A stretch of DNA of 64,000 nt from Rhodoluna sp. Lineage in GTDB: Bacteria; Actinomycetota; Actinomycetes; Actinomycetales; Microbacteriaceae. Shown piece after piece: positions 41,502 through 43,880 of this stretch (position 1 is the stretch's first letter; each line of letters begins with the position of its first letter). The stretch lies in the NCBI RefSeq assembly GCF_024641065.1, contig NZ_JAHEDV010000001.1:310001-374000 (forward strand), given 5' to 3'. Made by a program: the position numbers and the translations under genes. The notes below the pieces were generated by a model. It saw only the letters and a list, made by a program, of their open reading frames with translations. It had not been told where the DNA came from and ran no database searches.

Positions 41502-43184
41502 TTAGTCGCGAGTTAGTCGACGATAGGTAGAACGATGCGGCTTTGCCGCGTCGGCACCCAAGCGTGCAATCTTGTTCTCTTCGTAGGCCTCGAAGTTTCC
41601 TTCGAACCAGTACCACTGGTCAGGCTTGTCGTCGTTGCCCTCATAGGCAAGGATGTGTGAAGCCACTCGGTCTAGGAACCAACGGTCGTGAGTGATAACC
41701 ACGGCACAACCAGGGAACTGGAGAAGCGCATTCTCAAGTGAACCAAGGGTTTCAACATCCAGGTCGTTTGTAGGTTCGTCGAGTAGCAACAGGTTGCCAC
41801 CCTCTTTTAGAGTCAAGGCCAGGTTGAGTCGGTTGCGCTCACCACCAGATAGAACGCCAGCAGGTTTCTGCTGATCTGGGCCCTTGAAACCAAACGCTGC
41901 CACATAGGCACGTGACGGCATTTCTTGATTGCCGACCTGAATGTAGTCGAGACCACCTGAAACGACCTCCCACAGGGACTTCTCTGGGTCGATGCCTCCA
42001 CGAGACTGGTCAACGTATGAGATCTTTACGGTCTCGCCGACCTTGAGGTCGCCGCCGTCAAGTTTCTCAAGCCCAACGATGGTCTTGAACAAGGTTGACT
42101 TACCAACACCGTTTGGACCAATAACACCAACGATGCCGTTGCGAGGAAGACTGAAAGACAGGCCGTTGATGAGTGAACGTCCGTCGAAGCCCTTCTGTAG
42201 GTTTTTCGCCTCGATAACGATGTCGCCAAGACGAGGACCCATTGGAATTTGGATCTCTTCAAAGTCGAGCTTTCTGGTGCGGTCAGCCTCAGCCGCCATC
42301 TCTTCGTATTTAGCCAAACGCGCCTTTGACTTTGTCTGACGAGCTTTTGGAGAAGAGCGAACCCAGTCGAGTTCTTCAGAGAGGCGCTTCGCAAGCTTGG
42401 CGTCTTTTTTACCCTGAACTTCTAACCGTTCGCGCTTCTTCTCAAGATAGGTCGAGTAGTTGCCCTCATAAGGGTAGGCGCGGCCGCGGTCTAGCTCGAG
42501 AATCCACTCGGCCACGTTGTCTAGAAAGTAACGGTCGTGGGTAACAGCAAGAACTGCACCAGGATACTTAGCCAAGTGCTGCTCTAGCCAAAGCACAGAT
42601 TCAGCATCAAGGTGGTTAGTTGGCTCATCTAGAAGTAGCAAATCTGGCTTCTCGAGCAACAACTTGCAGAGAGCAACTCGGCGACGCTCACCACCAGAAA
42701 GGTTGGTAACCAGGGTGTCACCCGGCGGGCAACGAAGTGCATCCATGGCCTGTTCGAGCTGAGAGTCTAAGTCCCAGGCGTCGAGGTGGTCGATTTGCTC
42801 TTGAAGCACACCCATCTCTTCTAGAAGAGCATCGAAATCTGCATCAGGCTCTGCCATCAAAGCTGAAATTTCGTTGAAGCGGTCTAGCTTTTGCTTGGTC
42901 TCTTTAACAGCAAGCTCAACGTTGCCAAGCACGGTAAGACTCTCGTCTAGCGGTGGCTCCTGCATGAGGATGCCAACGGTGTGCTCTGGGCTAAGTCGGG
43001 CTTCACCATTGCTTGGGGTGTCGAGCCCAGCCATGATTTTTAGAACTGTGGATTTACCAGCACCGTTTGGCCCTACGACACCGATCTTTGCGCCTGGCAA
43101 GAAGGCCAGAGTGACGTCGTCAAGAATTACTTTGTCGCCGTGCGCTTTGCGCGCTTTGATCATCTGATAGATGAATTCAGCCAT
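41502..43184 (-). CDS. ettA: Energy-dependent translational throttle protein EttA (ABC-F)
   Basis: 560 aa with two ABC cassettes (GPNGAGKST, LSGGERRRVALCKLLLEKPDLLLLDEPTNHLD; LSGGERNRLNLALTLKEGGNLLLLDEPTNDLD). Confidence 0.97.
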   Translation of the reverse strand: MAEFIYQMIKARKAHGDKVILDDVTLAFLPGAKIGVVGPNGAGKSTVLKIMAGLDTPSNGEARLSPEHTVGILMQEPPLDESLTVLGNVELAVKETKQKLDRFNEISALMAEPDADFDALLEEMGVLQEQIDHLDAWDLDSQLEQAMDALRCPPGDTLVTNLSGGERRRVALCKLLLEKPDLLLLDEPTNHLDAESVLWLEQHLAKYPGAVLAVTHDRYFLDNVAEWILELDRGRAYPYEGNYSTYLEKKRERLEVQGKKDAKLAKRLSEELDWVRSSPKARQTKSKARLAKYEEMAAEADRTRKLDFEEIQIPMGPRLGDIVIEAKNLQKGFDGRSLINGLSFSLPRNGIVGVIGPNGVGKSTLFKTIVGLEKLDGGDLKVGETVKISYVDQSRGGIDPEKSLWEVVSGGLDYIQVGNQEMPSRAYVAAFGFKGPDQQKPAGVLSGGERNRLNLALTLKEGGNLLLLDEPTNDLDVETLGSLENALLQFPGCAVVITHDRWFLDRVASHILAYEGNDDKPDQWYWFEGNFEAYEENKIARLGADAAKPHRSTYRRLTRD

Positions 43185-43220
43185 GTGAATGGTCTCTTTC
43201 GATAAGTACGCAGCTCTCGC

Positions 43221-43404
43221 GGGCGCCTTATGAAAATGGCGCCCTCCAAATCTTGGGCTTGCTTGGGTATAAGTTTACCCGACCAATAATGGCTTCTGAT
43301 GAGCCTGTAATGCATGCCTAGATTTGAAGGGCGCCGTTGCCTCCCGAGGGGTGGGAGGGTTAAGTGCTGGGCCAAGGGTTGAGGGGGTCGCTACTTGACC
43401 CAGC
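43221..43404 (-). ncRNA. Candidate structured RNA / 5' leader between ssb and ettA
   Basis: Intergenic; 11-bp stem (43366-43376/43394-43404) with C-rich loop, 6-bp CCTCCC/GGGAGG hairpin with ACCCCTC loop, 16-bp stem (43238-43253/43320-43335), GGGCGCC hairpin at 43221-43244; non-canonical positions are G-U only if transcribed from minus strand. Confidence 0.6.
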
Positions 43405-43418
43405 GGTCTAGTGGCTTA

Positions 43419-43880
43419 TTACTTTGCCTTGATTTTTGCAGCGGGCGCAGTGGCAACAAGATCGGTTGACTCGAACTCTTCTTCAAAGTTAGAGTCAGTG
43501 TCTGTTGGCTCGGTTTCTCGAACCAAAACGGTGCGGGTGAACACAGAGCTACCCCATGCAAGATCGTGCCCCATCGAATCGGCTTCAACTTCAACTGAAG
43601 TACCTGCTCGTTCACCGTTATCCCAGTCGCGAACACGCAACTTTCCGGTTACTGAAACGCGGTCGCCTTTATTGACCGAACCGGCCGAATTGATCGCTAG
43701 CTGTCGAAAACTTGTGATGGTGAACCAATTTGTTTCGCCGTCGATCCATTTGTTTTGAGCGCGATCAAATCTTCGACTAGAAGATGCCAGTCGAAACGAG
43801 GTAATTGGCAGGCCATCTTGGGTGACCAGGTGGCGAGGTGTAGTCGCAACCAAACCCGCGACCGAAAGAGTTTCTGACAT
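43419..43880 (-). CDS. Single-stranded DNA-binding protein (ssb paralogue)
   Basis: OB-fold SSB: NWFTITSFRQLAINSAGSVNKGDRVSVTGKLRVRDWDNGERAGTSVEVEADSMGHDL. Confidence 0.93.
   Translation of the reverse strand: MSETLSVAGLVATTPRHLVTQDGLPITSFRLASSSRRFDRAQNKWIDGETNWFTITSFRQLAINSAGSVNKGDRVSVTGKLRVRDWDNGERAGTSVEVEADSMGHDLAWGSSVFTRTVLVRETEPTDTDSNFEEEFESTDLVATAPAAKIKAK

Follow-up and report, generated by a model that had tools for sequence, protein, structure and literature searches.

What is the role of the branched RNA fold that fills the spacer between the ssb and ettA genes of a Rhodoluna sp., and does it, as a preliminary description of the locus proposed, serve as a riboswitch or attenuator leader for ettA? 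The fold lies on the minus strand of what we term the window, that is, the whole 64,000-nucleotide stretch of DNA that was analysed, and all coordinates below are window positions. The next gene downstream of the element on this strand is ettA, an identity supported by the NCBIfam models PRK11819 (EttA; 915 bits, cut-off 599) and TIGR03719 (896 bits, cut-off 807). The upstream neighbour encodes an ssb-like protein that matches NCBIfam PRK07772 with an E-value of 1e-26, under the curated cut-off of that model; a transcript bearing both arms of the closing helix would be that of ssb. The features of the locus are listed here in the order in which the minus strand is read.

43419–43880, minus strand: ssb-like gene (single-stranded DNA-binding protein), the upstream neighbour (open reading frame list, NCBIfam)
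43366–43404, minus strand: hairpin H1, with the C-rich loop ACCCCCUCAACCC, close behind the ssb stop codon (fold, C-run counts)
43340–43358, minus strand: H2, a second small hairpin with the loop CACCCCU, in some close relatives only (folds)
43320–43335, minus strand: 5' arm of the closing helix P1, probable terminator stem (MFE fold, covariation in 31 sequences)
43291–43305, minus strand: inner hairpin P3, optional among relatives (MFE fold; the hairpin recurs with different sequence)
43265–43280, minus strand: inner hairpin P4, GGGTA/TACCC, overlapping the TAAACT box (MFE fold, position counts)
43272–43277, minus strand: TAAACT, which we predict to be the −10 box of the ettA promoter, in the P1 loop (near-invariance in relatives, genome-wide box counts)
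43264, minus strand: an A at which ettA transcription is predicted to begin, for a 5' UTR of 80 nt (from leaderless-gene spacing and purine preference)
43238–43253, minus strand: 3' arm of P1 (MFE fold, covariation)
43232–43237, minus strand: AUUUUC, the U-rich sequence that abuts the 3' arm of P1 (U content over 45 relatives)
43221–43227, minus strand: third GGCGCC segment, able to pair with the 3' arm of P1 within the 5' UTR predicted for ettA (fold of 43182–43264)
43194–43200, minus strand: GAAAGAG, probable ettA ribosome-binding sequence (by sequence; GAAAGUG precedes the ATG in close relatives)
41502–43184, minus strand: ettA, energy-dependent translational throttle protein of the ABC-F type (NCBIfam PRK11819 and TIGR03719)

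A conserved RNA structure upstream of ettA

Folding of positions 43185–43420 on the minus strand yielded an energy of −91.4 kcal/mol, compared to −62.5 ± 4.6 kcal/mol for shuffled sequences (z −6.3), and none of 200 dinucleotide shuffles equalled the spacer. The MFE fold reproduced exactly the 16-pair closing helix that the preliminary description had drawn between 43320–43335 and 43238–43253, with its single non-Watson-Crick pair being U-G on the minus strand, and it contained the two hairpins reported within (43265–43280 and 43291–43305); the paired arms and inner hairpins upstream of ettA are thus confirmed. The P1 arms enclose a loop of 66 nt in the window, and the 3' arm ends 53 nt before the ettA start at 43184, on the same strand. 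The element is present as one copy in the 1.43-Mb genome. Rfam families, sought at or near their gathering scores, gave no match for the element in the window, the spacer or the relatives at the ssb–ettA locus.

The loci of relatives, 69 of them named, were retrieved by an SSB protein search, mostly from Rhodoluna and Aquiluna metagenome-assembled genomes and other Microbacteriaceae, with further relatives added by a DNA search of the family. About 60 Rhodoluna and Aquiluna spacers display the same architecture in different letters, in the shared order of ssb stop codon, H1, P1 with species-specific sequence, inner hairpins, U-rich letters and ettA. Among 31 aligned elements, 99% of the P1 cells were paired and the outer P1 pairs had changed on both sides in 10 of 10 cases; the whole-structure covariation score was 0.474, as opposed to 0.207 for shuffles and at most 0.11 for slid controls, with the whole-structure measures matched by 0 of 500 shuffles. 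Compensatory changes and retention of the arms, on both of which the preliminary description had staked its claim, are accordingly found in relatives. A covariance model matched 14 of 400 genomes of the family, in 3 of 85 genera, always once per genome.

Inside the loop, P2 covaried at four of its six pairs and P4 pairs were nearly invariant; the P4 pair counts were omitted from the covariation result, the structure being one column off there. RNAalifold run on a MAFFT alignment recovered P1 only, probably owing to misalignment of the inner columns. P3 is lacking in L010, L045, L047, L051, L070 and L090, junction lengths differ between relatives, and the loops between the P1 arms span roughly 25–90 nt. 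The inner region is more stable than its shuffles (mean z −2.4, 45 relatives), and the GC/GCA letters flanking P4 are conserved. Exceptions to Watson-Crick pairing in P1 were G-U in 13 cases and A-C in 3 (p 0.02; arms picked by Watson-Crick pairs only), an excess which indicates that it is RNA transcribed in the ssb-to-ettA direction that pairs; the difference in folding energy between sense and antisense strands was not significant (p 0.14). The element is a selected RNA structure upstream of ettA that belongs to no described family.

The TAAACT box in the P1 loop

The loop holds a single near-invariant block, TA(A/T)A(C)T preceded by GG, within a conserved TCGG surround that reads TCGG(G/A)TAAACT. 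One of TAAACT, TATACT, TAAAGT or TAAAAT is found in nearly every spacer of the Rhodoluna/Aquiluna type, usually as the only TAnAnT of that spacer, with TAAGCT in its place in L011. This box survey is the less filtered check, as the position counts were filtered for TA(A/T)A(A/C/G)T and reach 100% at positions 1, 2, 4 and 6 by construction. Four spacers that lost P1–P3 (L037, L039, L041 and L049) retained the box, and the structure around it is a different one in L054, L064 and L095. A box that outlives the fold in this way is more likely to be part of a promoter than part of an aptamer.

We queried 750 kb of the genome of the window for boxes of this kind. The motif TAnnnT occurred 75 times at position −12 of start codons, versus about 8 times at other positions, and this peak is the signature of leaderless genes; its commonest forms were TAGGCT (22), TAAACT, second with 13, and TAGACT (11). 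TAAACT is therefore a −10 box type of this genome. Leaderless genes seem common in the same 750 kb, with the consensus TA(G/A)NCT followed by T. A T also follows the box both in the element and in leaderless promoters, and a purine occupies the predicted start position in 90% of relatives; a sigma-A start would lie 6–8 nt past the box. In many Microbacteriaceae that lack the element, TAGACT or TACACT is positioned 12–15 nt before the ettA start.

Conservation of a −35 sequence, for which a spacing of 16–18 nt would be usual, was found neither upstream of TAAACT in the relatives nor at the leaderless promoters within the 750 kb. This absence counts against a promoter in the P1 loop; however, since the leaderless promoters of this organism also lack a −35 box, such a box does not define its promoters. 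In Corynebacterium glutamicum, the sigma-A −10 element is TANANT and the −35 is weak (PMC3890552). The TAAACT hexamer, the lack of a conserved −35 and the purine at the expected start are shared with these sigma-A promoters, from which the ettA box differs in its placement within a conserved RNA helix. Likewise, the leaderless promoters of the genome of the window use the same box, whereas the ettA box predicts a 5' UTR of 80 nt rather than a leaderless mRNA.

Terminator features of P1 and a proposed promoter nested in its loop

The preliminary description had set aside an intrinsic terminator on the ground that a U-tract was lacking. This overstates the case: in the window the 3' arm is followed by ATTTTC, and across 45 non-redundant relatives U accounts for 52% of the 10 nt after P1, compared to 20% in the next 10 nt and 18% before P1. 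The symmetrical arrangement of a textbook terminator (A-run, stem, T-run) is apparent in L010, L013 and L021, with that of L010 reading AAAACCCTCTTT...AAAGAGGGTTTTT. The resemblance to intrinsic (Rho-independent) terminators comprises a GC-rich stem that leads into U-rich sequence, its position behind a gene on the same strand and, in some relatives, A-stem-U symmetry; as RNA, the stem is conserved in the ssb sense, and the U-tract comes right after it. The element departs from such terminators in that its loop measures about 25–90 nt (66 nt in the window) in place of 3–8 nt, is structured, and holds a conserved promoter box. A short loop is usual for intrinsic terminators and is not strictly defining; given the long loop, we claim the element as a variant of the class. 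A further difference is that the U-stretch of the window is short, at four U, and with just AUUUUC to follow the stem termination may be partial. A standard terminator scan of the window, which accepts loops of 3–8 nt only, found none.

Taken together, these observations favor a nested arrangement, to which we assign a probability of about 0.68: the element would be an intrinsic terminator for transcripts arriving from the ssb side, with the predicted ettA promoter inside its loop. A polymerase coming from ssb would transcribe both P1 arms; the inner hairpins P2–P4 would shorten the 66-nt loop so that P1 closes, and the U-rich stretch behind it would let the ssb-side transcript end. Upon read-through, P1 would sequester the region before ettA. 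A polymerase starting at the TAAACT box would instead begin past the 5' arm, near 43264, and because an ettA mRNA from this position lacks that arm, it would form no P1 terminator and run into ettA. Its 5' UTR could form the local GGCGCC hairpin instead of P1. In L042, L045, L047, L051 and L097, the P1 3' arm, with GAGGG-like letters, holds the only Shine-Dalgarno candidate and ends 3–5 nt before the ATG. A sole Shine-Dalgarno candidate in this position fits an ettA mRNA without the 5' arm, as read-through RNA would keep it paired.

Several observations weigh against the nested arrangement. Beyond the missing −35, the short U-stretch and the empty scan, the inner fold and the conserved GC/GCA around P4 exceed the needs of a loop, the conserved TCGG surround goes beyond a plain −10 box, and ettA is possibly also transcribed from upstream. 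Phrase searches of the literature for a nested promoter and terminator returned nothing relevant, which is weak evidence given literal matching and partial coverage. Our verdict is that the element is conserved in three genera and that the nested arrangement would represent a new combination of known parts. If it is correct, streamlined genomes can fold a transcription stop and a transcription start into the same ~100 bases, and it depends on where a transcript began whether the arms halt polymerase or let it continue, a self-insulating design that requires no extra DNA. For motif finders, the warning is that a covarying terminator with a near-invariant promoter box in its loop can mimic a riboswitch exactly.

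The same genome contains a second case, in which a probable terminator of deaD (DEAD-box helicase) precedes rplJ (L132:11342–11458, G000:C14); its 18-bp stem encloses a 19-nt loop with TAGGCT, the −10 box that occurs most often in this genome. The rplJ leaders of relatives carry the same letters (AAAGACCGCYGGTTT) without a matching 5' arm, and among 30 rplJ loci the nesting is confined to the genome of the window; we thus do not count rplJ as a conserved second case.

Regulatory RNA and repeat alternatives

The riboswitch or attenuator leader of the preliminary description survives in part: the RNA upstream of ettA is structured and bears compensatory changes, and its function as a leader of the ettA mRNA is unsupported. 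Given the −10 box, ettA transcription likely starts within the element, and the ettA mRNA would lack the 5' arm, which disfavors a riboswitch leader; P1 is better read as a terminator of the upstream transcript. As for the switch between GGCGCC segments, pairing with 43221–43227 is real in the window (7 nt, reached by 0 of 100 shuffles) and recurs only in L020, L056 and L073; over 36 relatives, the alternative pairing averages 3.7 nt compared to 3.5 nt in shuffles. As a mutually exclusive pairing it is hence a property of the window and a few relatives and is not conserved, and the conserved core is not tied to the fold.

An aptamer embedded in the terminator, in the form of a new riboswitch or a protein-binding ettA leader transcribed from ssb or further upstream, is the strongest competitor and nonetheless unlikely. 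A ligand or protein on P2–P4 and the UAAACU loop would set whether P1 forms. This would agree with the covariation of P1 and P2, the inner fold that beats its shuffles, the conserved loop block TCGG(G/A)TAAACT, the constant placement upstream of ettA, and the Shine-Dalgarno sequence in the P1 3' arm of some species and the U-tail in others. Against it, the conserved loop letters are those of a −10 box of this genome and survive the loss of every helix as well as changes of structural context; some relatives do without P3, the junctions differ in length, P4 is too invariant for covariation to support an aptamer there, and Rfam has no match. One clue to the discovery of the HMP-PP riboswitch was a terminator loop conserved to an unusual degree (PMC6478431). 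The ettA element resembles that thiS riboswitch (PMC6478431) in having a terminator stem with such a loop upstream of one gene; unlike it, the loop letters match a −10 box and persist without the stem, and conserved alternative pairing is absent. A bolder variant, which we regard as less probable again, is that the element belongs to a new class of regulatory RNA embedded in a terminator, in which the loop (P2–P4 and UCGGRUAAACU) would sense a metabolite or translation factor while doubling as the promoter, such that ettA transcripts initiated upstream and internally would be regulated differently. We retain some weight on a regulatory aptamer because the inner fold and the conserved letters flanking P4 are more than a bare loop needs.

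Hairpin H1, which the preliminary description did not mention, brings in a further alternative. An unpaired run of at least four C is found in its loop in 39 of 50 relatives, where 1.1 were expected, and its stems covary with sequences unrelated between species. H1 could bind G-rich ribosome-binding sites, and together with the P1 terminator it may make a stable 3' end, or a small RNA from the 3' UTR of the ssb transcript, that binds such sites. As an account of the element we hold this more doubtful than either aptamer reading. The C-rich loop kept on fully divergent stems speaks for it, as does the occurrence elsewhere in the genus of separate 6C-like RNAs with C-rich loops; it leaves unexplained why the P1 loop contains a −10 box, shows no 6C match at the ssb–ettA locus, and is compatible with the nested promoter and terminator, so that it is no exclusive alternative. 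We rejected H1 as a 6C RNA (Rfam RF01066): it shares the conserved C-rich loop of both 6C hairpins, but it is one such hairpin at a different locus, whereas membership takes two C-rich hairpins and an Rfam score, and the 6C-like matches come from loci that contain neither ssb nor ettA.

A mobile or repeat-derived palindrome (MITE, REP-like) or a DNA-level hairpin with no RNA role, which an intergenic inverted repeat of this length might suggest, is highly improbable and largely refuted, the repeat or mobile origin by the single copy in this genome and the one match per genome in three genera, at the ssb–ettA spacer wherever the locus was read, and the DNA-palindrome reading by the G-U bias for one strand, despite the p of 0.14 for sense-antisense energy alone, next to a U-rich tail on one side only.

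In the nearest relatives (L005–L006) and in the window, the H2 loop reads CACCCCU or TACCCCU; in L007, L034 and L035, H2 is kept as a hairpin and the C-rich loop is gone. A search for 6C-like RNAs found none in the genome of the window. Such RNAs, with two C-rich hairpins followed by a T-run and scoring below the Rfam cut-off, were present in 6 of 21 genomes of the genus (L183:1501–1569, L184 and L185–L188).
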